The notes beneath the pieces were generated by a model. The model had not been told where the DNA came from, did no database searches, and was given only the letters and a program-made list of their open reading frames with translations. Positions 18,001 through 26,583 of a DNA stretch of 64,000 bases are shown here, piece after piece (positions within the stretch are counted from its first letter, which is position 1; each line of letters opens with the position of its first letter). The position numbers were made by a program, and so were the translations under genes. The stretch is from Oceanicola sp. (GTDB lineage Bacteria; Pseudomonadota; Alphaproteobacteria; Rhodobacterales; Rhodobacteraceae): positions 16,150 through 80,149 of the forward strand of contig JAKVBK010000009.1 in the NCBI GenBank assembly GCA_022447275.1, read 5' to 3'.

Positions 18001-20579
18001 CCGGGGGCGACAGTCTGCCGGCGCAGGTGACGGTCACTGTGGCGCCGCCTGCAGCCTTGCCGGTCATTGTTGATCCCGGCCCTCAGTTTGTCTCGGAGGG
18101 CGCAACGCTGTCGCTTAGCCTCACTGGGATTGATGCCGCAGCAACAGGTGGACTGACATGGGCGCTGCTGTCCGGCCCCGTTGGTGCGGCGCTGGATGCA
18201 ACATCAGGTCAGTTGACCTGGCAGTCCGCAGACGGTGCCAGTTCTGAAAACTTTCTTGTGGAACTAAGGGATGCAGATGGCGGCACACGCCAAGCCAGCT
18301 TTGATGTGACGGTCGCCGATGTGGCCCCTCAGATCACCTTAACCGGTGCCGCCTCTGTTGCTGCTGGCCAGACCTACACCGTGGCGTTTGACGTCGCAGA
18401 TGTTGTGGCAGATGCACCCACTGAGATTGTCGTGACATGGGGCAATGGCACCTCTTCGATCCTGCCGGGAACTGCGCGCGAGGCGAGCACCACCTATGCT
18501 GCGGCGGGAGATTTCAGTGTCGGCATTACAGTCACCAACAAGGATGGCATTTTTGCCGGGCCAGATCTGGCTGTTGAGGTGCGCGATGTCGTTGTTAATC
18601 CGCCCGCGCCTGTCGTCGAAAGTTTCACCGCCACGCGATCTGTGCTCACCGTGGTCACGGATCGTGCAATGATCGAACCAGCGCCGGGTCTCTTTGTGTT
18701 GGAAGAGGCAAATGGCAGGGTGATTTCCACATCTGTTTCTCTTTCCGGCACTGGCCGGACTGTGACAGTCACCCCGGATACAGAGCTCAACCGTGGCGAC
18801 TACGTGTTGCGGATCGCCGACGGGTGGACTGCTCGCCCCGCAGAGGGCGGCGCGGCGCTGGACGGAGATGGGGACACGATAGCAGGCGGTGCGGCGGAAC
18901 TGACCTTCCGTATCCTGGCCGGGGTGTCACCTCCGATTGCCGTGGCCGATACTGCAACGACCGCTTTTGAAAGCGCGGTAACACTGGATGTGCTGGCAAA
19001 TGACATCGCCGGATCAGCAGGTGCTCCGGTGATCGCCTCCTTCGGCCCAGCCCAGAATGGCCAGGTGTCACAGCTTGGAGATGGGCGCTTGGTCTATACG
19101 CCCAATGCGGGGTTCTCTGGCGTAGACAGCTTCACCTACTCGGTGAGCGATGGCGTCAATCTGTCTGAGCCGGTTACAGTGACATTGACTGTCTCTGGCA
19201 GCGTTTTGGTCTCTGATCCAAGCGATGGCGGCGGGGCGAGTAGCGATGGGGGCGGCTCCGTTGGAGGGGCGCCTGTTGCACCAGTAGCGCATTCGGGCCC
19301 CGCAAGGCTTCCGGGATTCCGGGGTATTGCCGTTGTGCCGTCCGGTGAAAGCCGTGCCCAACCGCCCTCGCGCCTGCAGTCGACACTGATCCGATCCTCT
19401 GTGCAAACAACGCAGGCAGATAGTGATGGTGCGTCCGCCTCTGGTGTCTGCCGGGCGGCCAGCGTCGCGATGATCGGGGGGCAGATCGTAACGTTGCCCA
19501 CCCTTGTGGCGCCGGGCGATAGCGTTGCGCTCAGCCTGCCAAACGGTGCGCCAGAAGGAATGCGGATAAACTGGGGAACGGAAGGAAGCGTGCGCGTTCC
19601 AGTGGGCGCGACAACCGTCTCGCGACGCTTTGACAGCGAAGGAATCCGCGCCGTAACGATCACCCATGGTTCTGGCGATACGGCCACGCAAGAGACCCTC
19701 TATGTGTCGGTTGGACGGCCCGACCCAGTACGCATCGTGGAGGCGGTGATGCGCGGTGGTCGGTTGGTGCTCACCTTCTCGCGTGCGGTATCGCCGGACG
19801 TTCTGGAAGATGGCAGGGTCTGGCTGGCTGATCGTGCGGGAAGAACGGTCGATATGGGGGCGGTTCTGTCGCGAGATGGCACAGTTCTGACGATCACGCC
19901 CTTGGGGCTTGACCTTGTGCCCGGCACTTTAACACTGCGTCTGCAAAGTGGTCCGTTGGGTGTGCTGGATATGCTGGGCTGCCAGATCGATGGCGACGGC
20001 GATGGGCGCGCTGGTGGGCACTATATTGCGGAGTTTGACATGGGGCTCGACCAGGCTGCATTGAACTTACCCGATATCGTCTATGAAGGCGCGATCGTGG
20101 CCGGTGGTCCCGCTTTCGTGCGCGGTCAATCGATTGGTATTCCGCTGCTAGGGTCCGGAGCTGCGGCAGAGCTCTCTGTGCGCGGCATGGGCGCTGATCT
20201 CGCACCGGAAGCGGTCACCGGGGATGTTCAAAATGGCCCATCGGGCCCTGTTTTGGGAGATGGCGCCGCCGCAGTGGTGTGGCTGGATTCTGCGCCGCAC
20301 ATCGAAACGCTGACGGTTGCAGGCCGGTCGACGGAAACGATGGAGCGGGAGATTGCAAAATCGCAGTCGGCCTCGTCTGAATTGGCAGCACCGGTTGTTC
20401 TGGCGGGTATACTCGGCCTTGCGCGGCCTGCGCAAACTGCGGGACAGCGCTCTAAGGCGCGCCGTGCGGCTAAGGCGCCAGCGGTGGCGCCGCCTGACGG
20501 GCACGGCATTTCAGGCGCTGCTGCGCTGTTGCGTGTTCCGCTGGGTGCAGAGTCTGAAAGGCCAGACAAGCTGTCATGA
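1..20579 (+). CDS. Giant multidomain surface/secreted protein, 5' partial (at least 6,859 residues)
   Basis: The reading frame is open from base 3, and the residues before the first GTG (position 39) already resemble the end of a CARDB domain, so the real start lies outside the window. Numbering from position 39, approximate parts are: two CARDB-like domains (14-265), a prepeptidase-C-like and an IPT/TIG-like segment (270-465), a propeller-like region (1155-1418), an SbsA-type Ig domain (1420-1530), nine Ig/cadherin-like repeats (1637-2502), an RHS/YD-like region (2690-2950), a dockerin-like Ca2+ segment (3066-3106), Big-2-like domains (3200-3390), a second YVTN-like propeller (3785-4355), an alpha/beta-hydrolase-like segment (4515-4675), a coiled coil (5176-5275), a zincin motif (H5649, E5650, H5653, D5659), and Big-9/PKD-like domains (5920-6385). 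No RTX nonapeptide repeats were found. It overlaps the next gene by 4 bp. Its role is inferred as a giant adhesin or matrix protein exported by the three genes that follow. Confidence 0.9.
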   Translation, partial: GQVDEYNAEGNNVAVHALRVEPAPKPDVVAQITAPARMVAGEYTEITVTLVNQGGPMPPEQSSWVTRLRLSRDDLITANDPIVGQVYGLSNMDTGDSSEHTVRLRVPPGLEPGPWRLIAQVDRPDIGAPDGFVLEGPAGEANNITRVAVQIDAPPPANLVPVGVTLPAGLIAGDEIDIAWEIFNAGDNATGPAWSDAIYLSRDGAYDADDILLVRAENEGALGAGQNLQRSTKVRVPMLAEGEWRVILRTDLLGEIDEGAGEAGNTVVTTRVVTVTVPRIGLNEPIAFDLAPGVERLIKVEVPFGQTLQAMVAGLDGPLGGPVADLMVGYQGPPDRSDPLAADLSRGAERATAVVAGTSPGDHYILVRGVAGGASTVQLEARLLPLSIDTVTVDRLGAGAWVTTEINGAQFAQGATVRLSRPGFEAYEPQAWSVVDSSRIIASFDLTGATRGLYDVSVTNPDGTIAVLPYRVMVDPPRAAEVEVALDAERVMPFWDSVHPIGVALRNASNLDAEYVFFRTFIPEMGQNVLVLDDVRNSFARYGDAIMAQGAALSGDGPFEVLNPSSEIRGRHVSSGYAFGLAPGQQARADMALHVYPGVEDPTFEEVLAMPFDTVVAVAATPMTRAEFEAQQRALAEALRQALLADPAASPELFAVAADGELWSDLYIGALEDAGVLRLQDGVPPVREQPLVASMLSTLAQGALAGPLGGQATGAGGARGLFEALTALYAGDAGVQAALLGQGPIQLDVHDGTPFVAVQDAEAFDMGLEGATASRQTRLFMVPSGDLQPQDISVGAEPEEIISALGPDAIGGQGQMALDLRQYLIDQGRSTGGATLVGPDTSDTDGWLPHDTDLPFTLGAVADESAGAVRSLRASVPLDPDLDPESFTLADMRLGSIGIDVPQGKRLFQTEIDLRTSRGFILRVSAGIDLLSSTPTATWLIEAIDPLSGVTLPAGEQGLLLPGQTAELGWFARSATGLVSGNGVSAEAVVLMDDRAPERAANAPARLDLRAPTTRLQQQDLGGGRIALDWAAADDVGVQHVTLYAQEPDGPWRILVRRAEGAASGYVAENVVPGTRFLALATDIAGNIERPALAEALPADGPRVDLGAPPETARTPADPPLAQPGPAPTNPLFLAAQIDQLTPYVADVAPASFSALNTPFAGEAFAASIPTSEGSIGALDVLELSDGRVWVTGGVARASIWELDLENDGAPVGEPIQTADLPLYDLAEGLDGRVWAATGGGPLLELDRLTGEVIARHGDSVGTAVAVSPLDGTLVVAGVAGAAVFDPVTEAFTPLGRDLDLRLGALAFDDSGTLWGVSWPGRDRVVRMTETGRVETVHISPHPIDSLAFGQTGTALQNLLFVTSVAAEDTPSGTSAGTGGVLTLIDPSSLQAVEIADGGLRGEGVTTTSDGRVLVAQGSVVDAILPVFAPEVEASNPAPGDLRVAPLPLLEITFDQRMLDAEPGVPGSVRDPANYALRGSDGTIETPEFVAYSESTRTAHLGFGALPGDTWTMVVDGAANIYGVPLNDPYEVPFTLITNLSDVIELDLSATRFDRSTGDVSFDVALTNTLDRPVRLPLLLTLDTDGGLGVPPEDAQAIGEGAWTLDLSALLPDDGVLQPGETTTGRTVQLDASGRSRPDVLFGSAGNTGPNAAPEFGDLPNLPELEIGTPWTFDLTATDPDGDPVLFGLLDGPQGMALDAVTGTLSWTPNADVLERSTVTVQAFDTLGAARIVRFDLDVIGGNSAPRFVNMPSELVGEAGQTLQLRVNVSDPDGDPLAVFADGLPPGARFDPITRTLTWMPETGQEGLWPDLRLIADDGTSQSVAFVPILIDAGADPLVLRGPSEASVAEGGRIVIRFEGEGGGAGRALRFEADRSSLPPGAVLNPETGALSWTPGYDQAGEWDATIALTDGEARIERSVQITVAPANAAPVFFGMDAWQVYEGRELTLSLFPYDPDSPYARPPVRLPDGSLDFADVPLSTTTRVVSGLPAGASFDPDTTEFTWTPGPDDAGVYEIVLETTDDGGGVPDGVPITVRDTLSLRVLPANILPEIDFIDPVTVASGETRVLTLRATDGDGDIPRLQLETDAPQTALPGFVQFIDNGDGSGTVTIAPGAGDRGLYSLRVTATDGDGADTTFGFTLEATSSNEAPVLGPLYDAVAVAGEAQTLLLPLSDLDGETLDVQVSGLPGLIDMMPSDTTGLWALSFNPDPGALGTHQVQISVTDQGGADGAPVTVSDAFTLTVRTANTAPRLDAVGDRTVPPGGQLLVQLVGRDLDGDSLHYSARGLPAGATLDPQTGVLEWTPRPGQLGREGIVLSVTDGHETATETIALRVDLPERPPVFDPVAPQLVREGDELIIAVGARDPEQGDVFLSLAQGPADMVFDPVLGVARWRPSYGDAGNYQISILALDGAGQSAEQTIEINVVNVNRAPELTLADAGFAVGVPKQVQANASDADGDHLTYRLINAPEGVTVDDEGRLSWTPQPGQSGDHLIVLEATDGVDPRRVVALWSVRDLPVAPSIRVETTPDFPAVPGQPVLIRPVIDAAAPVVRLAVTADGQDLPRDQAGRFILVPDMPGRVTIEVTVEDADGATATQTHTLKVRDPDDVDAPLLDLLELPNGPLDSPVDIAGAVSDSNLDTWSVALIDRSGVRPALTLAEGDAGITGVLAQLDPAKMPDGWYVLRVVAADMGGRRTVRDTLIEIAQPNKTARLLHDTTDASLSLGGVALDLVRRFDSFAAGAVPRGHLAEGWHFATLDMRVESERGLSDVSGLGLETALRSGERALVSLPDGTKAGFTFAPVSVQENGRSFARPAWVPDDPDAGWQLETGQAELIRVGGRWYTVSAAAPYNPGASGGVGDDYRVTGPDGRVYALDAERGLTRITTADGGLVHVSDAGLIGRDGNALRFERDSAGRVTRIVGEGIDMSYRTDDEGRLQLVRNLLTGAAERMGHTSSGELRLATNDAGGSAWAGDTEMSFGADLATLTSWGDASDSINFGPDGHVVHSLVVRASELASTASGRVHIQVTLAGGATGATLDGVDPIGVSDDGSVLVFAVDRPGLLALEVTGTGAHQVRLQAVGDLDLDGDVDADDTSAFGAGTDVDGDGDVDTADRALFNANFGLQPNRPPQPVGEIPPFLTHVDVPIEIDLASLLADAEGDDARYVVLGAVNGTGWIRGETGVFLPQTGVSGDAELIIQADDGWTLSDPIHIPITISDAPLLALDFVGRAQVMATAGIDVPLQLIADFADAEDVDVPLWWAGVQSSDPDVIQISPDGSLIGLARGHVVISAGRGDIAAATIAGVAKADTLDEALTLAGGIDAYPDAVTVLQASQSRQIVTSLGSLGEHFRGQAAQGTRYVVADARIVSVTEDGLITALQPGETTVTVLHGFGEETITVKVLGAVGGASAEVGAEGAILQSASGTRLSVAPGSLPDGTAVSLVDIAFEDLDAKLEGLGLGGDANWGFLGAVDVQMSVPSTETDTPMQLAVPTNGAAQPGETVAFFQRIEMPTGPDDAMEWHWALFDTGTVGDDGLARTASPPFPGLTDRGQVLAARVGFPSKVVKVDYVSDALIQAALYAGALISDLTGGLVDLSAYMASMAVTVSGAISLNYIVPDGDYRQARLEAFKKTADGTVERLEYELELDPELTFEDIDLVPTGEAPPPSIQPGSVSAAFAGVVDRPVITQSEIVEVFEDATQVKLSGFLFMDDALSYDLYEELDAEDIRNSRIRLNFNGQNFYIHGNEFVDIALRSSGTTGEYVQDIIFDVPQYVLLGATEIFVERPIVPRYTGPEPWDEDAEFVTSQPIRFNNEQQLLYVTSRTFGDPTGLPDRGYLEVIRPAPLGSNAADELIRRVPLPRDYLDVGVEMVASPNGAAIFVATLGAVEVFDTISQRFVDFSAADPANLFVAKELRGIPIPEGPITDMAMSEDGLRLFVSAKASIYEIDLSQGAEDFMTARKLLTLDVEVWDQTGAIDRAGENSAHNIIHAIELSKDGRRLYALTPYGERNMNMLRKSHIKFRESSQFWRSEMHVIDVDPALKGVRGERALWELELDDDGNQIYEPDGAKSKKRTTQTVELYGAKLGPAQDRAGDRFNGAMPMFASNGRWIVKNDARDLSRTNRDGVMTVTRRGAFGNGVAILFTTSDDPDTFSLNMETMKATVAQWRGFPDDMADALGMTRNAYNAWGYNLGETDWIPGKGGRQYPFLQRQIGTSFQRYDLDIQTAGEILMSPDGLYAFVVDTGHRSSPDRSTLAKIENQTTIGTKIGVVLDPLGSEPRFLGSVGVFPNQEIKDIALDPSGQRLVATLWHSDTVLAYDTSALIARATEMITSTGKDVNDPSIEPLDLNDTQGVNKPGIDISRPSAIAFSTASEIFVTPVTEPIVNWGENRDELRLTFGWDPEKVPNSDEGVQLYLSTRAPGLGLFPSDPPLHDAGGDKALKPFANDYNPGRVWSTPQGFAFKIGRAYEIGADRIVQDLGEASQNGTVEVTFSEDFMEIVTAGTTLYWGVQFGAAGIRAASSVEVAARAAGADEIAHVTLLTHGFQPFMSVLDGAWSVGYGQPETMLKLAREISDASGGAAVLLYDKRTGQWVNPENGLTGAAGITLGRGVVLVSDWVTESDITDEGFSEAAADALFASLMALDQETEHRLLDAPLHMIGHNRGASVNSEIAQRLAAHLPEINDVHVTTLDPFDQSQETLELPVEDMLLMIRWTNRLAAVVNVAKSVAAAVTTGGASLAVDAVPTASSLATQGLLEKAITTVFEVAGKLGIKIGVVSWDDFKDPDVKRWDNIAFHDNYFQTAAKGKKDGSDVTNTITDFFANSPVTASEAEKAMQAFLQSPDRWTVARRAQWEWLKLKFDVGLDLPGPFTFSANGRSLKGIADYEIDLSTTATGFDRDDFQIDAVGFRFGLNNPTERVLAWYAGTIDPKLELFLDVPIWRRAGDIAQDIRPYSMATENKFDERGWYGASSLALVLSDNMQSYIPSRYKSNPPGLIREGVGQGWFWSAGGGGDIYQPVKSTLTATPYTEDNSEQGAWKSEGAVPEIFNGNFEHGTRQSLVNMIASMIDVGAYIENFTAQPENATVAKKSSKERLFGKDALKSLFSGQVTSFGRFPFSYELPGWSFHGGEGFSAGLDAFRADIAGLFVMNTNPTGLFVDVFDALFDVYAGKITDAATKYLTAKVLKNNETINNNQGYANYKEKVDAIEGYTPAKASAAIKLRDQQQEKYKLAEQEFRIYELLNPVDPVGLAELARLRQVRDDAKRLLDSYENRVKLNGEVEGLHKQVSWLSSAILNDDTWNHIKAVRPAIFGIGPNNDKEGKLQTLESWLKVETDGVIDISKKKDLTEFIKEALKFTFFGKNPAQQDNAILMGGSEALKQLLEGAFSIFGGGSEMGEFVSSVVDELTEFDTLVHNRFWLPETGTNYLTFDTMAPMTVGGGAAVEVMFLKGETTEGAKVSSDSPNVLYRALVPLPEGFFEKTTHSIEVPESLKGQMVKLVIRNVGMETVANDVDITAPEVEDSTGEIEQFFLNASTSLSPGVFGLSQVYLIDNIALSAVPPSTGQAQEATRVAQNVSATVPLAADQVDAVADAARALWQATGVLTPEQDARLATLDFEVRDLGGTILALFDGEQVLLDDDAAGNGWSAAGVDGWQVHNAALRSVDLLTVIAHEMGHALGLPDLPGSGTEEDLMVGALATGVRRVPDADDLVPSDVAAPATPLTLSDVLGTAPRTRLAATTGSTNAIVGAAATTPPVNTTIENGNFDVDDPAGLGWTLVGDAQVVDGRALISESASVFSGITQAFLHDGSATALELTLSEISLTAEPRRVPDAIEIALRDEATGAPLVAVSGLSGTDALISIQADGALRVASGVSVEGTRLPDGRLDLSQALRVLIPLTNAVVDAGYRVSVDLLGFGGDDAQFAVDDVRLLTGANGNLRPVSEPDTAGTTAGTPVRIDVLANDTDAESDALDIVITMPPAHGTAVIQNGAVLYTPEVGFAGADTFFYVARDAGGDSLPAQVTVTVAPPAALPVIVDPGPQFVSEGATLSLSLTGIDAAATGGLTWALLSGPVGAALDATSGQLTWQSADGASSENFLVELRDADGGTRQASFDVTVADVAPQITLTGAASVAAGQTYTVAFDVADVVADAPTEIVVTWGNGTSSILPGTAREASTTYAAAGDFSVGITVTNKDGIFAGPDLAVEVRDVVVNPPAPVVESFTATRSVLTVVTDRAMIEPAPGLFVLEEANGRVISTSVSLSGTGRTVTVTPDTELNRGDYVLRIADGWTARPAEGGAALDGDGDTIAGGAAELTFRILAGVSPPIAVADTATTAFESAVTLDVLANDIAGSAGAPVIASFGPAQNGQVSQLGDGRLVYTPNAGFSGVDSFTYSVSDGVNLSEPVTVTLTVSGSVLVSDPSDGGGASSDGGGSVGGAPVAPVAHSGPARLPGFRGIAVVPSGESRAQPPSRLQSTLIRSSVQTTQADSDGASASGVCRAASVAMIGGQIVTLPTLVAPGDSVALSLPNGAPEGMRINWGTEGSVRVPVGATTVSRRFDSEGIRAVTITHGSGDTATQETLYVSVGRPDPVRIVEAVMRGGRLVLTFSRAVSPDVLEDGRVWLADRAGRTVDMGAVLSRDGTVLTITPLGLDLVPGTLTLRLQSGPLGVLDMLGCQIDGDGDGRAGGHYIAEFDMGLDQAALNLPDIVYEGAIVAGGPAFVRGQSIGIPLLGSGAAAELSVRGMGADLAPEAVTGDVQNGPSGPVLGDGAAAVVWLDSAPHIETLTVAGRSTETMEREIAKSQSASSELAAPVVLAGILGLARPAQTAGQRSKARRAAKAPAVAPPDGHGISGAAALLRVPLGAESERPDKLS
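4951..7545 (+). repeat. Nine tandem Ig/cadherin-like repeats in the giant protein
   Basis: About nine units of 85-120 residues follow one another. Most begin with an N-x-A-P type motif, carry D-x-D-G-D near residue 30, and contain a G-x-L-x-W-T-P turn around residue 60. This is the usual look of the He_PIG / dystroglycan-type cadherin-like family, where Asp-rich turns often bind Ca2+. The copies are clearly divergent at DNA level, so they are old duplications and not a recent tandem array. Confidence 0.75.
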
Positions 20580-22414
20580 CGGTTGACCCGATCCAGTCTG
20601 ACGGTCTGGCCCTCGGGGTGTTGCGCCACCCCGCATCTGGCGCATGGTTTGAAGCCATCGATCAGGCTGCGTTTATTGCTGGATGGCTGGATGAGACGCG
20701 CGCCTTGGTGACGGGTGTGCAGACCTTGGCGTTGTTTGTCGTGGATGACGGTGCCGATGCGCTGCGCCCGGTTGGGCTTTGGCCTGACGGGGATTCCGCC
20801 GCCCTAGAGGCCCTTTCCGACATTGTCGCCCGCGCGGCAGCACGCCCCGGTATCGCCCGCGTGCGCGGGCCAGATGGTGTTTTGCGACAGGCGCTTGCGA
20901 TCCGCGACAACGAGACCGTGGTCGCCGTGGCAGCGATAGCCGCCCTTGGACCCGAGGCGGAGACAGCGCGCGCCTTGCGCTTGAGCACCGGTTGGGTGGC
21001 GGCGCGGCTGTGGCAGCGCCGCGGCGCGCAAGATCGAGCGCGGTTCGACCGTGGCTTTGGTGCGTTGGACCTCATGGCGACCGCCGCAGAGCAGCGCGGT
21101 TTGAAACCTGCCGCAATGGCGTTGGTCGAAGAGTTGGCGCGATGGTTACCCGCCCGTCGCGCGGCAATCGGGCTTTTGCGCAGAACCGGGTCGACACCAA
21201 AGCTGCTGGCGATTTCTGGAAATGCTTGGTTCCGGCGCAATGCCCCGCTGGCGCGGGCCGTCGAAGATGCGATGGGTGAGGCTGTTGATCAGAATGAAAC
21301 CACAGCTTTTCCCCGGCCAGAGGCGCGCTTCGCCGCTATAGATACGGCGCATCAAGCGCTGTGTACCCGCACCGGCAGCCGCGCTGTCGTCAGCACGCCT
21401 CTGCGCGATGCGGAAGGGTGTGTTGGGGCCTTACTGGCCGAGTTTGAAACAGAACCCAGTGAAGAAGACCTTTTGCGCCTAGAGGCGATAGCAGCATTGG
21501 CTGGCCCTCTTCTGGCCCTCAAGGCGCGCGAGGCGCGCTGGATTTCAGGTCGGATGCCGCATCTGATCGGGCGTGGTTTGGGGGCACTTGGTGCGCCGCA
21601 TCGCCCCTCTTACAGGTTGGCAACCTTAGCCATTCTGGTCGCGCTCGCCCTACCTTTCTTCCTAAAAGGGGCTTTGCGTCTTGGGGCTGATGCAACGCTT
21701 TTGGGCACCGAACAGCGCGCTGCTGTTGCTCCTGTTGCGGGCTTCATCGAACAGGCCGATATCCGGCCCGGCGACAGGGTGGCGGAGGGCGATCTTTTAG
21801 TGGCGCTGGATGATCGTGATCTACAGCTGGAGACGGAACGACTTTCGGGCGAGATCCGGCGCTTGCGCCAAGAAGCGCGACTTGCCCTATCTGAAGATGA
21901 CGCGTCGGGTCGGGCCTTGACGGCCTCTCGATTAGAAGCGGCCGAAGCTGAGTTTGCATTGGCGATCGCGCAACTGGAGCGCATGCGCATTCGTGCGCCG
22001 GTGTCCGGCACAGTGCTGTCGGGTGATCACAGGCGTCGACTTGGGGCTCCGGTGGAGGCTGGTGAGTTACTGCATGAGATCGCCGCTGGGGACGGGCTGC
22101 AGGTTGAATTGGGTATTGATGAACGCGACCTGGCTTTGGTCAGACCCGGCATGCGTGGCACGCTTGCACTGGCTTCGGAGCCCAACCTGCGACTGCCGCT
22201 GACTGTGACGGCGATCACGCCCGTTGCTGGAGAGGTGGAAGGACGCCGCCTGTTCACGGCTGAAGCGGAGCTTTCTGGTTCCGTACCTGACGGCTTGGTG
22301 CCAGGGCTTGAGGGGTTTGCGCGCCTTGAGGCGGGCGAGCAGCGACTTTGGACGATTTGGACTCGTCGCCTGCGTGGCTGGCTGATCTTGCAAACTTGGC
22401 GTTGGCGGCCCTGA
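20576..22414 (+). CDS. GAF-domain / HlyD-like membrane-fusion protein (612 aa)
   Basis: The start codon overlaps the giant gene's stop (ATGA), so the two are probably translationally coupled. Residues about 165-320 look like a GAF domain. A single membrane helix lies at about 344-365. Then come the two halves of a biotinyl-lipoyl-like domain around a helical hairpin (about 412-475), with an R-A-P-V-S-G-T-V motif, and a beta-barrel domain, as in HlyD/RND periplasmic adaptors. The topology implied is a cytoplasmic GAF part and a periplasmic adaptor part. A membrane-fusion protein would bridge the periplasm for export of the upstream giant protein. The GAF ligand cannot be told from sequence. 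The C-terminus is short and has no outer-membrane component fused to it. Confidence 0.8.
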   Translation: MTVDPIQSDGLALGVLRHPASGAWFEAIDQAAFIAGWLDETRALVTGVQTLALFVVDDGADALRPVGLWPDGDSAALEALSDIVARAAARPGIARVRGPDGVLRQALAIRDNETVVAVAAIAALGPEAETARALRLSTGWVAARLWQRRGAQDRARFDRGFGALDLMATAAEQRGLKPAAMALVEELARWLPARRAAIGLLRRTGSTPKLLAISGNAWFRRNAPLARAVEDAMGEAVDQNETTAFPRPEARFAAIDTAHQALCTRTGSRAVVSTPLRDAEGCVGALLAEFETEPSEEDLLRLEAIAALAGPLLALKAREARWISGRMPHLIGRGLGALGAPHRPSYRLATLAILVALALPFFLKGALRLGADATLLGTEQRAAVAPVAGFIEQADIRPGDRVAEGDLLVALDDRDLQLETERLSGEIRRLRQEARLALSEDDASGRALTASRLEAAEAEFALAIAQLERMRIRAPVSGTVLSGDHRRRLGAPVEAGELLHEIAAGDGLQVELGIDERDLALVRPGMRGTLALASEPNLRLPLTVTAITPVAGEVEGRRLFTAEAELSGSVPDGLVPGLEGFARLEAGEQRLWTIWTRRLRGWLILQTWRWRP

Positions 22415-22417
22415 ACG

Positions 22418-24571
22418 ATGTCAGTTGCAGAACGCCCCTTCTTGTCTGACCAGTGGTATCGCGTCGCGGATTTGACGCCGAAGCTCGCGCCCCAGGTGCG
22501 CCTGGAGCGGCGCCGGGGCCCGGGAGGGGCACATTATCTGCTTTTCGATGCGCTGACAGGACGATCGCACCGCCTGACCATTGGTGCGGCCCGCCTTGTG
22601 GCCACCTTCGATGGCGACACGCCATTTGGCATGGCCTGGGAAGACTTGATCAATCGCATGGGTGAGACGGCTCCGACACAGTCCGAGGCCGTGCAGGTGC
22701 TCAGTCAGTTGCACGGGCAGGATCTTGTGATCGCCGATATTGCACCGGATGTTTTGGAGCGGGAAGAGCGGCGTGGAAAGCAAGACCGCAAGCTGCTTAA
22801 GCAAAATCTGATGGGTCCATTATCAACGCGGATACCGCTTTTCGACCCCAGCGCCTTACTGGCAGTGACCGAACCCCTTGTGCGCCCGCTTACCGGCTGG
22901 TTTGGTTTCGTGCTCTGGCTGGCATTTGTTATTTATTCTGGCGGGCTGGCCCTTGCCGATCGCACGGCCATTGCGAACGCCTTTACCGATCAGGTCTGGA
23001 CGGCGGGCAGCATCGCCACCATCGCAGGCACCTATGTGGTGATCAAAATTCTGCACGAATTTGGCCATGGCTGGGTGGCCCGACGCCACCGTGTGCATGT
23101 GCCAGAGTTTGGTATCATGCTGCTGGTTTTTATGCCTGTTCCCTATGTGGATGCGACCGAAGCAGCAAAGCTTGAAAGCCGCTGGGCGCGGGCAGGCATT
23201 TCCAGCGCCGGAATCGTGGTTGAAACAGCGCTTGCCGGGCTGGCTTTTCTGCTTTGGCGTGAAGCAGATCCGGGCCCTTGGCGCGCAGTGTTGTTCAACG
23301 TGATGCTGGTTGGTGGCGTCTCAACCGTTCTGGTAAATGGCAACCCACTTCTCAAGTTTGATGGGTATTTTGTTATGACAGACCTGTTTGGCCTGCCCAA
23401 TTTGGCGCAGCGCGCAAACAAGGCATGGGGAGATTGGGCCGACCGGGTGCTATTCGCCGCCCGGGACGTGCCGCGGCGCCCTTACTCTGCCTTTGAAAAG
23501 GCAGCTTACACGTTCTATGCGCCTGCCGCGTTTGTGTATCGAGTGTTCCTGTCATTGACGATTGGGCTCTACGTGGCATCCAGCTTCTTTGTGCTGGGCG
23601 TTATCCTTGCGATCTGGTCCCTTGTTCTGTCCGTGGGCAAGCCGCTGGCAAAGGGGCTCTGGCACATCGCAACGTCCCCCCGGCTGCAACGCACCCGCAC
23701 CCGCGCCTATGCCTTGACCGCGGCAGGCTGTGCGGTGGTTCTCGGTTTCCTGTTCGCGGTTCCACTTCCCAATGCGACCTGGACACAAGGGGTTGTCCGC
23801 GCGCCCCAAGGAGCAGAGGTGATCGCGCTTGCGGAGGGACAGATCGAGACGGTGCCTGGCATAGCAGGTGCGAATGTGGCACCGGGCACGACCTTGGTGC
23901 GCTTGGCAAACCCCCTGTCAGAGATGCGCCTTAAAGCCTTGCGCGCGCGTTTGAAAGAGGCCCGTGTGGGGCTTCGGATCGCGCAGCTTGAGGGACCTGC
24001 TGAAGCGCGTCTGGCCGAAATTGGTGTGGAGGATGCAGCCGCACAATTGCGCCGCGAAGAGGCCCGGGCGGCAGATCGGGTGATGATCGCGGGCATCGAC
24101 GGTGTCTTTCAGCCGATTGCCGCGCCCGGAAACCTGGTCGGGCGTCATGTCAGGCGCTCAGAACGGGTGGGCCATGTAATCCCAGGCACGTCAGACCGGG
24201 TGCGTTTCGTGGCGCTGCAAAGAGACGTGGCTGCGATTGAAGAGGGCGTACTTCGGGTGGAGTTTCAACTGCCGCATGAAGCCATCACCAGACAGGCGAT
24301 GCTTGAGGGCAGGGTTTCGACAGGGGCCTTCGACCTGCCGTCTCCGATTTTGGCGCGCAGCGCGGGCGGACCGGTGCCTGCCCTGCCATCAGAGGGGGGC
24401 ACGCAACGCGCGACAGAGCGTATTTTCACCTATGACGCCATCCTTCCCGAGGGCCTAGACGCGCCGATTGGGGGGCGTGTCTACATCAAGTTGGTGCACC
24501 CTTGGCAGCCGCTTGGGCCGCGGATGGTTGAAGCAATGCGCCGCAATATCGCAGGTCTGATAGAACTATGA
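22418..24571 (+). CDS. PqqD-like / M50 site-2-type metalloprotease / HlyD-like fusion (717 aa)
   Basis: The start is 3 nt after the preceding stop. The first ~110 residues resemble a PqqD-type winged helix, which in other systems binds substrate peptides. The membrane part (about 150-450) has several helices and both M50 signatures: HEFGH at 213-217, and N309-P310 followed by D315-G316, the third metal ligand motif. After the last helix (about 430-450) the protein continues as an HlyD-like biotinyl-lipoyl, coiled-coil and barrel region. This architecture matches proteins named 'putative peptide zinc metalloprotease' (YydH-like). It is expected in the inner membrane, cleaving or holding a substrate during export. 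All metal-binding residues are present, so it should be active. Its stop overlaps the next gene by 4 bp. Confidence 0.85.
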   Translation: MSVAERPFLSDQWYRVADLTPKLAPQVRLERRRGPGGAHYLLFDALTGRSHRLTIGAARLVATFDGDTPFGMAWEDLINRMGETAPTQSEAVQVLSQLHGQDLVIADIAPDVLEREERRGKQDRKLLKQNLMGPLSTRIPLFDPSALLAVTEPLVRPLTGWFGFVLWLAFVIYSGGLALADRTAIANAFTDQVWTAGSIATIAGTYVVIKILHEFGHGWVARRHRVHVPEFGIMLLVFMPVPYVDATEAAKLESRWARAGISSAGIVVETALAGLAFLLWREADPGPWRAVLFNVMLVGGVSTVLVNGNPLLKFDGYFVMTDLFGLPNLAQRANKAWGDWADRVLFAARDVPRRPYSAFEKAAYTFYAPAAFVYRVFLSLTIGLYVASSFFVLGVILAIWSLVLSVGKPLAKGLWHIATSPRLQRTRTRAYALTAAGCAVVLGFLFAVPLPNATWTQGVVRAPQGAEVIALAEGQIETVPGIAGANVAPGTTLVRLANPLSEMRLKALRARLKEARVGLRIAQLEGPAEARLAEIGVEDAAAQLRREEARAADRVMIAGIDGVFQPIAAPGNLVGRHVRRSERVGHVIPGTSDRVRFVALQRDVAAIEEGVLRVEFQLPHEAITRQAMLEGRVSTGAFDLPSPILARSAGGPVPALPSEGGTQRATERIFTYDAILPEGLDAPIGGRVYIKLVHPWQPLGPRMVEAMRRNIAGLIEL

Positions 24572-26583
24572 TCGCGCGGCTCTTCCCTCCACGCCGCCTA
24601 TTGCCGGCCTCTCAGCAGGTATATCGGCCCTATGTGCAGCGTCGGGTACCCCCGATGAACTGGGTCGATAGAACCTGGCGGGCGTTGAAAGGCGGGTTGA
24701 CCGCCATCGGGCCAAGGCGCTTGCGAGGCCGTCAGCGCATCGCTTCCGTGCTGCGAGGGCTAGAGCAAAATCAGGACTGTCCCGCATCAGAACTGGGCGC
24801 ACGCGTGGAAGATCTACGCGCAGAGTTTCGGGAGTATGGCCTTCGGCCAGACCTGCTGGAGCGCGCAGTGGCGCTTGTCGCCGTAGCGGCCTTCCAGGAA
24901 CGCGGCATGCGGCCCAGGCCCGTGCAGGTTTCCGGCGCGCTCTTGCTGCTAGACGGCGCAATGCTCGAGATGGCAACAGGCGAAGGCAAAACCTTCACGG
25001 CAATATTGGCGGCTGGGGCAGCCGCTATTGCTGGCATGCGGCCACAGGTCATTACGGTCAATGATTATCTGACAGAGCGAGACGCTGAAAACGGTCAGCC
25101 GATTTTTGCACGTTTGGGCCTATCGCTTGGGGTCGTCACCTCGAATACAGACAAGGGGGACCGCCCGGCCGCCTATGCTCAGGACATCGTCTATGTGAAC
25201 AATACCGAGGTCGCCTTTGATTATCTCAAGGACATCGTGGCGCTTGGTCCCGCACGTAGTCCTGCGCGGCGACTGCTGCGTGCGGCCATCGGTGCGCCAG
25301 GCCAACCGAAACCGCAACCCACCATCCTGCCGGGCCTCCATTTTGCGATTGTCGACGAAGCGGATGGCATTCTGGTCGACGAGGCATCCACGCCGCTGAT
25401 CATTTCCGCGAGCCAGGACATGCCCCCTGACCCGGCCCCTTATATCGATGCGTTGCGGGTTGCGCGGCAACTCACGGAAGGCGCCGACTGGTTTCAGGAG
25501 GCGCGCGCGCGCCGCATAAGGCTGACGGATGCCGGACGCGCCCGTATTGCCTCGCTGGCCTATCCGCTGGGTGGGCTGTGGCATGTGGCCGGTGCGCGGG
25601 AAGAACGGGTGCGCCAGGCGCTACAGGCGCTGCATCTCTACGTGCGGGACCGCGACTATATAATCGGAATGGATCCAGACACGTTGGAGCCTGCAATTGT
25701 CATCGTGGATGAGAGCACGGGCCGTCCGATGCCGGACCGTTCATGGGAAGGTGGCTTGCATCAATGCATCGAAGTCAAAGAAGGGCTGGTGCCAACCGCA
25801 TTGCGCCAAACAATTGCGCGGGTCACCTATCAGCGCTTTTTTCGGCAATATTTGCGTATGTCTGGCATGACGGGAACAGGCCTTGAGATCTCTGGTGAGA
25901 TGCGGAGCTTTTTCGATCTGACAACCTATGCCGTGCCGCCGCATGTCGCAAGCCAGCGGAGATTTCTTGGCTCCCAGCTTCTGCCGAATGCGCCCGCCAA
26001 GATCGCGGCCATCGTGGCGCGTTGCGCCCAGATGCATGCCCAAGGGCGGCCGGTCTTGGTGGGTACGCGCACCGTCAGCGCCTCAGAGATGGTTTCCAAT
26101 GCTCTCGAGAGCGCAGGGCTCCCCCATGTCGTGCTGAACGCCCGCCAGGATGCCGACGAGGCCGATCTGATTGCGCGCGCTGGTGCGCTTGGGGCCATTA
26201 CCGTAGCAACCAATATGGCAGGGCGGGGGACGGATATCAGCCTCAGCTCTGCTGCACGCGCTGCCGGAGGGCTGCATGTCATTCTCACAGAGCATCACGA
26301 AAGCCGCCGCGTCGACCGGCAGCTTTACGGGCGGGCAGGGCGCCAGGGGGATCCCGGCTCCTGCGAGGATATAGTCGCGCGCGATGATCCACTCTACAGC
26401 CGATTTGCGCCGCGCGTGTCACGCCTCGTCCGCCCTGTACCAGCATGGTTGGCCATTCGCCTGCTGCGCAGGCGCATGCAGAGGCTTGCGGAAGGCCAAT
26501 CCGCATACGCGCGCAGGCAACAGTTTAAAACTGAGAAGGATTTGGCAAAGCAATCAGCGATTGCGGGTGTTGAGCACGGCTAG
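24568..26583 (+). CDS. SecA-like preprotein translocase ATPase, short form (671 aa)
   Basis: All SecA motor signatures are visible: Walker A T-G-E-G-K-T with K141 and T142, V-N-D-Y-L-x-x-R-D, the I-V-D-E-A-D Walker B region followed by D-E-A-S-T-P-L-I-I-S, M-T-G-T, A-T-N-M-A-G-R-G-T-D and G-R-x-G-R-Q-G-D-P-G. The preprotein cross-linking region is also recognisable (R-D-R-D-Y-I, E-G-L-H-Q). It stops soon after motor domain 2, so the helical scaffold/wing domains and the C-terminal zinc finger of housekeeping SecA (about 900 residues) are largely missing. The start codon overlaps the M50 gene stop (ATGA). The context suggests a dedicated accessory SecA driving the giant protein, possibly through SecYEG, and not the cell's main SecA. 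Confidence 0.88.
   Translation: MIARLFPPRRLLPASQQVYRPYVQRRVPPMNWVDRTWRALKGGLTAIGPRRLRGRQRIASVLRGLEQNQDCPASELGARVEDLRAEFREYGLRPDLLERAVALVAVAAFQERGMRPRPVQVSGALLLLDGAMLEMATGEGKTFTAILAAGAAAIAGMRPQVITVNDYLTERDAENGQPIFARLGLSLGVVTSNTDKGDRPAAYAQDIVYVNNTEVAFDYLKDIVALGPARSPARRLLRAAIGAPGQPKPQPTILPGLHFAIVDEADGILVDEASTPLIISASQDMPPDPAPYIDALRVARQLTEGADWFQEARARRIRLTDAGRARIASLAYPLGGLWHVAGAREERVRQALQALHLYVRDRDYIIGMDPDTLEPAIVIVDESTGRPMPDRSWEGGLHQCIEVKEGLVPTALRQTIARVTYQRFFRQYLRMSGMTGTGLEISGEMRSFFDLTTYAVPPHVASQRRFLGSQLLPNAPAKIAAIVARCAQMHAQGRPVLVGTRTVSASEMVSNALESAGLPHVVLNARQDADEADLIARAGALGAITVATNMAGRGTDISLSSAARAAGGLHVILTEHHESRRVDRQLYGRAGRQGDPGSCEDIVARDDPLYSRFAPRVSRLVRPVPAWLAIRLLRRRMQRLAEGQSAYARRQQFKTEKDLAKQSAIAGVEHG

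Follow-up and report, generated by a model that had tools for sequence, protein, structure and literature searches.

A short SecA-type ATPase in a conserved gene module beside LEPR-XLL giant proteins

We analysed a 64,000-nucleotide stretch of an Oceanicola sp. genome (assembly GCA_022447275.1, contig JAKVBK010000009.1, positions 16,150 to 80,149; hereafter the window), focusing on a gene for a short SecA-type ATPase located at 24568–26583. Window coordinates refer to the forward strand unless otherwise noted. We propose, with a probability of roughly 60%, that this short SecA is the ATPase that powers a conserved export module from the cytoplasm, the cargo of which would be the upstream giant protein bearing an N-terminal LEPR-XLL motif. 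Direct observations behind this proposal were the gene content and order, the intact ATPase and protease residues, the monophyly of the short SecAs, their common truncation point, and the association of LEPR-XLL with the module. The short SecA belongs to a known but unstudied family, which was already described together with its neighbours in 2015 (PMC4452313).

A short SecA paralogue with a common end point

The open reading frame (ORF) begins with ATG at 24568, ends with the stop codon at 26583, and encodes 671 residues. Pfam search of the product yielded SecA_DEAD (257 bits), P-loop_SecA (160 bits), and SecA_PP_bind (72 bits), and gave no match to the wing/scaffold or SEC-C families. All the expected motifs were present: Walker A TGEGKT (residues 137–142; 24976–24993), Walker B DEAD (residues 263–266; 25354–25365), TNMAGRGTDI, and GRAGRQGDPG. 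The core residues of the catalytic motifs were invariant in an alignment of 28 short relatives, including TGEGK of Walker A and D263, E264, and D266 of Walker B. Compared with SecA1, most family members carry an insert of approximately 17–20 residues just 5′ of Walker B. The preprotein cross-linking domain was assigned to residues 292–402 (25441–25773; SecA_PP_bind, 72.2 bits). The Pfam matches and the invariant residues thus agreed with the original prediction of a 671-residue SecA-like ATPase with full motor motifs and the cross-linking region. The C-terminus, placed about 60 residues after RQGDPG in that prediction, lies 74 residues past it.

The AlphaFold model built with the alignment of 28 relatives had a predicted local distance difference test score (pLDDT) of 86.7 and a predicted template modelling score (pTM) of 0.86. 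Residues from 50 or 82 to approximately 618 of the protein matched solved SecA structures, and the best TM-scores of the model were obtained with SecY-engaged SecA (6itc_A, 0.81; 5eul_A, 0.80). The final element of the model is a single long helix of residues 627–665 (26446–26562); in the alignment it corresponds to the beginning of the SecA scaffold helix, and it contains Q638 and R649, both invariant among relatives. The wing, the two-helix finger, and the zinc C-tail are absent. Loss of the C-domain, as first claimed, therefore holds for these three parts, but the scaffold is only partly lost, residues 627–665 being kept. A transmembrane C-terminus was rejected, as no consistent hydrophobic segment was found at this end in the family alignment.

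Judging from the sequences, the short end characterizes the family and does not reflect decay, since E. coli SecA residue 665 marks the approximate end point of relatives across Alpha-, Beta-, and Gammaproteobacteria and Fibrobacter. The genome scan yielded 28 short relatives, in addition to one ordinary SecA (L019), and further short SecAs were obtained from the same genomes as the first relatives. The alignment ended at the position of E. coli residue 665 in 26 of the 28 rows, the deviation of the other two being an alignment artefact at the last residue. Among 38 extracted short SecAs, the family match reached the ORF end or stopped at most one residue short of it. No C-terminal SecA remnant was found elsewhere in the window. 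The end point shared by the relatives and the lack of such a remnant in the window led us to reject frameshifting and truncation by the assembly.

Three SecAs are encoded in the source genome: the short SecA of the window, another short one on contig C25, and a full-length SecA that ends in CPCGSGKKFKHCH. As the full-length SecA is encoded separately, the window ORF was rejected as the housekeeping SecA of this genome; all 24 other searched genomes with a short SecA also hold a full-length one. In a tree of 61 sequences, built without actinobacterial SecA2 and without the sequences of PMC4452313, the 30 short SecAs formed one clade (support 100/100), which was separate from proteobacterial and Bacilli SecA1 and lay outside five of the six Bacilli SecA2 rows. 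The nearest non-member was a long-branch SecA2 (L154), whose placement there may be an artefact. The original prediction had called for such a phylogeny, naming a position inside housekeeping SecA with no other secA gene as the outcome that would count against it; what was obtained was a position outside SecA1 and most SecA2, together with a full-length SecA in the genome. The protein scored 460 bits with the equivalog model for housekeeping SecA (TIGR00963; cut-off 800) and 392, 376, and 400 bits with the SecA2 models TIGR03714, TIGR04221, and TIGR04397 (cut-offs 930, 725, and 1085), falling below the cut-off each time. The window gene is thus supported as a separate SecA paralogue beside the full-length SecA. 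The two short SecAs of the genome are approximately 42% identical and belong to different subclades. On these grounds a recent duplication was rejected, and separate acquisition or old divergence is indicated by the different subclades.

The gene module and its association with LEPR-XLL giants

The short SecA gene recurs in the order giant, (DUF3467), GAF-HlyD, PqqD/M50-HlyD, short SecA, and HlyD. In the window it follows the giant as the third gene, a position correctly recognized from the start. At 38 short-SecA loci, the M50 gene was always present (38/38), GAF-HlyD was missing in only three, two of which were cut by the contig end, and a large ORF usually adjoined the locus. The order was confirmed on closed plasmids of Pseudosulfitobacter, Mesorhizobium, and Methylosinus. 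On the Methylosinus plasmid, the genes for the giant, DUF3467, GAF-HlyD, PqqD/M50, short SecA, HlyD, and TolC are consecutive; the Mesorhizobium plasmid is a variant with two adaptor genes ahead of the M50 gene and none behind the short SecA. In a burkholderial subgroup (L032 and L033), the giant lies downstream of the module. No ABC transporter was seen among the module genes. OEP genes of the source genome lie elsewhere, HlyD is in the module, and an adjacent TolC gene occurs in one relative. The third HlyD candidate of the window system was located at C89:1892-2971, on the opposite strand and upstream of the giant.

In the window, the GAF-HlyD adaptor-like protein (612 residues; 20576–22414) matched HlyD_3, HlyD_D23, and GAF. 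It is followed by a 717-residue membrane protein (22418–24571) identified by its M50 match, zinc site, and fold as a PqqD-like, M50 zinc protease, and HlyD-like protein. This M50 protein is probably an active intramembrane protease, because the HExxH motif (H213, E214, and H217) and the distal D315 were kept in all 28 aligned M50 proteins, to which the genomes G010 and G024 of the survey described below also contributed rows. Its N-terminal domain (residues 27–100; 22496–22717) has the predicted secondary structure beta-beta-beta-alpha-alpha-alpha, as PqqD has, and PqqD (PF05402) scored above the cut-off at the same place in three relatives. In fold comparison, the C-terminal HlyD part matched AcrA/MexA-type adaptors. 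PqqD-like domains bind leader peptides in peptide-modifying pathways. The combination of this domain with the zinc site and the cargo motif suggests that a leader is bound and cleaved at the membrane.

The C-terminal part of the giant protein, with CARDB, He_PIG, Big_9, and cadherin-like domains, occupies positions 1–20579 of the window. Its N-terminus lies upstream of the window, starting at C89:3485 with the sequence ..PPVELETLEDRILLSADFAP.., and LEPR-XLL at C89:3644-3697 scored 25.0 bits, above the NF012209 cut-off of 17, which places the giant in this family. A run of Ns near G000:C89 16113-16165, just upstream of the window, splits the giant into ORFs of 4226 and 6871 residues; these are probably one gene, which would encode a protein of about 11,000 residues.

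LEPR-XLL was found in all 21 recovered N-termini of giants beside short-SecA modules. Eight of these came from loci, three were on plasmids, and ten were fetched after the presence of the motif had been predicted, all ten bearing it; one further giant was still open at its far end. The eight include the giant of the genome's second copy, whose N-terminus is on contig C15 and was joined to the locus on presumption. Profile scores for five motif-bearing N-termini were 25.6–34.2 bits against the cut-off of 17. Many of the cargo giants have RTX-like repeats.

The co-occurrence of LEPR-XLL and the M50 protein was investigated in 387 alphaproteobacterial and 370 gammaproteobacterial genomes, with at least 430 bits defined as a high-scoring M50 match. 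The M50 counts are lower bounds, because few candidates per genome were scored in the first look, and the p-values serve as a guide only. Among the gammaproteobacteria, LEPR-XLL occurred in 31 genomes and high-scoring M50 in 33, with 27 holding both (Fisher p about 4e-31); any M50 match occurred in 57, 29 of them shared with LEPR-XLL (Fisher p 5e-25). Among the alphaproteobacteria, LEPR-XLL occurred in three genomes, all three with an M50 match (p = 0.004 without the genome of the window); one of the three, G065, was without a short SecA, and its M50 was of the lower-scoring type only. The short SecA was held by 19 of the 31 LEPR-XLL gammaproteobacterial genomes, and lies away from the module in G521 and G724. 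The genomes tested that lacked high-scoring M50 had a single SecA each, except G517, which had none. Lower-scoring M50-HlyD genes (about 290–390 bits) were set aside as a related system; they were mostly without a short SecA, and the checked genomes had one SecA. A LEPR-XLL giant of approximately 7,400 residues (G640:C57:21725-21784) was also observed in a genome that lacks both an M50 match and a second SecA.

Proposed mechanism and its alternatives

In the mechanism that we propose, the basic N-terminus and the LEPR-XLL motif of the giant would be a targeting leader. The M50 membrane protein would bind this leader with its PqqD-like domain and cut it off near ..LLSAD with its zinc site. The short SecA would push the long unfolded chain through the inner membrane, from where GAF-HlyD, the third HlyD, and the HlyD region of the M50 protein would guide it to a TolC-type outer-membrane channel. 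The conserved place beside the giant, GAF-HlyD, and M50 genes fits a dedicated role, as was originally suggested with the term substrate-dedicated motor. That suggestion needs one restriction: the motor is not obligatory, as approximately a third of the LEPR-XLL genomes are without a short SecA.

Several points weigh against the proposal. The leader function, its cleavage, the motor activity, the path, and the inner-membrane partner, that is, every step of the mechanism, are deduced from sequence and the structural model. The two-helix finger, which housekeeping SecA uses at SecY, is missing from the short SecA. The sampled genomes are related, and the above p-values overstate their independence. 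Furthermore, no short SecA was found in 12 of the 31 LEPR-XLL gammaproteobacterial genomes; one of the 12, in which the M50 gene lies at the end of a contig, and another, which yielded no SecA at all, are uninformative, leaving approximately ten. The modules without a short SecA keep GAF-HlyD, M50, HlyD, and the LEPR giant. These genomes indicate that the short SecA is replaceable or helpful in only part of the systems: it seems to belong to the module, yet the module can exist without it, and it is not strictly required. Loci L206 and L208-L214 have GAF-HlyD/M50/HlyD and usually a LEPR-XLL giant with no short SecA nearby, and some of these genomes have none anywhere.

It is conceivable, though we do not favour it, that the short SecA is an accessory motor on ordinary SecYEG, like Gram-positive SecA2, and that the M50 and HlyD proteins act later on the periplasmic side. 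The retained cross-linking domain and both nucleotide-binding domains, together with the best model match to SecY-bound SecA, are consistent with such a role, and modules without a short SecA would be expected if housekeeping SecA and SecYEG can substitute for it. On the other hand, the two-helix finger, wing, and C-tail are missing in all members, and the equivalog scores of 460 bits for SecA and 392 bits for SecA2 are far from the cut-offs of 800 and 930. A further reading, which we do not favour either, dispenses with SecYEG altogether: the giant would be secreted without an ABC transporter by the short SecA acting directly on the M50-HlyD protein, which would itself read the LEPR-XLL leader through its PqqD-like domain and cut it. 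The original prediction had likewise put forward docking on the M50 or GAF-HlyD protein, a candidate alternative to SecYEG.

It appears unlikely that the short SecA acts in the cytosol as an unfoldase or holding factor for the very long chain, or as a regulator read by GAF-HlyD, with housekeeping SecA providing the force at the membrane. SecA DEAD motors without the C-domain hydrolyse ATP in an uncontrolled manner, which would suit this role, as would the optional presence of the short SecA and the occurrence of DUF3467, another small cytosolic-looking protein, at many loci; however, the tight ordered linkage to two HlyD-type membrane proteins at nearly all loci suggests a membrane role. That the gene is a functionless degenerate copy of housekeeping secA, as its being approximately 240 residues shorter than SecA might hint, has next to no probability and is refuted by conservation, namely the retention of all catalytic residues, the same end across phyla, the 100/100 clade, and the conserved operon order.

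Relation to known systems and further module genes

The closest described proteins are the "secondary SecA_DEAD proteins" of Kamneva, Poudel and Ward (2015; PMC4452313), encoded beside GAF-HlyD and M50-HlyD genes. In that paper they have SecA_DEAD with little or no SecA_SW, are second to a canonical SecA, form a separate clade, and have GAF-HlyD, M50-HlyD, HlyD, and sometimes OEP genes as neighbours; their proposed secretion role was already built on an ATPase motor and a module without an ABC transporter. The window protein shares these features: it has the same domains with SecA_SW absent or a fragment, a canonical SecA in the genome, GAF-HlyD and M50-HlyD neighbours, and a clade apart from SecA1 (100/100). 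The paper names no cargo, the terms giant, RTX, and hemolysin being absent from its main text. It draws no link to LEPR-XLL, and PqqD and DUF3467 did not turn up in the sections consulted, although no search aimed at these was made. A paper on LEPR-XLL (PMC10868602) does not mention SecA, and the name of the LEPR-XLL entry (NCBIfam NF012209) gives no export route, whereas the motif is tied here to the M50/HlyD/short-SecA module. Within the open-access literature searched, the LEPR-XLL/short-SecA link, the PqqD domain, and DUF3467 seem new.

The module resembles type I secretion (HlyB/HlyD/TolC) in its HlyD-type adaptors, the adjacent TolC on one closed plasmid, and the RTX-like repeats of many cargo giants, but differs in that no ABC transporter was found in it and the conserved part of the cargo is an N-terminal motif, not a C-terminal signal. 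As with Gram-positive accessory SecA2, a second SecA-type ATPase exists beside housekeeping SecA; SecA2, however, keeps most of the C-domain, the clade differs from the bulk of the tested Bacilli SecA2, and the module is without SecY2. N68, a laboratory truncation of E. coli SecA, ends before the scaffold helix. It has nearly the same domains as the window protein (PDB 5k9t; Foldseek E 3.6e-43), but it is artificial, whereas the natural family keeps the scaffold helix.

LEPR-XLL giants rank among the largest proteins of bacteria, several of those found here having 7,000 to 12,700 residues, and the literature searched gave no described export route for them. With the association reported here, their export has a compact candidate machine and a candidate signal, so that the question becomes testable by a few deletions, and the second SecA of Gram-negative bacteria, so far unexplained, gains a possible role.

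The LEPR-XLL regions of two giants (L027 and L016) gave sub-threshold matches to PF07595 Planc_extracel (14.9 and 13.3 bits; cut-off 25.5), and this planctomycete motif may be the same signal. On the closed plasmids, short SecAs are annotated as "translocase", "DEAD/DEAH box helicase", or "prepilin peptidase"; the last label, given to the short SecA of Methylosinus plasmid pMSC49a (L223:14204-16120), is probably a misannotation. DUF3467 (PF11950), a small protein, is encoded between the giant and GAF-HlyD at 24 joined loci (for example, L004:15177-15545, reverse strand), among them that of the second short-SecA copy of the source genome; it was not found at the module of the window. It was not supported as a SecB-like chaperone: hhalign gave a probability of 0.5%, and a PDB profile search brought up no SecB. 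In Rhodobacterales, genes for a radical SAM protein and for two conserved proteins without a known function come after the module (L004:5672-8266, reverse strand), which suggests peptide modification.

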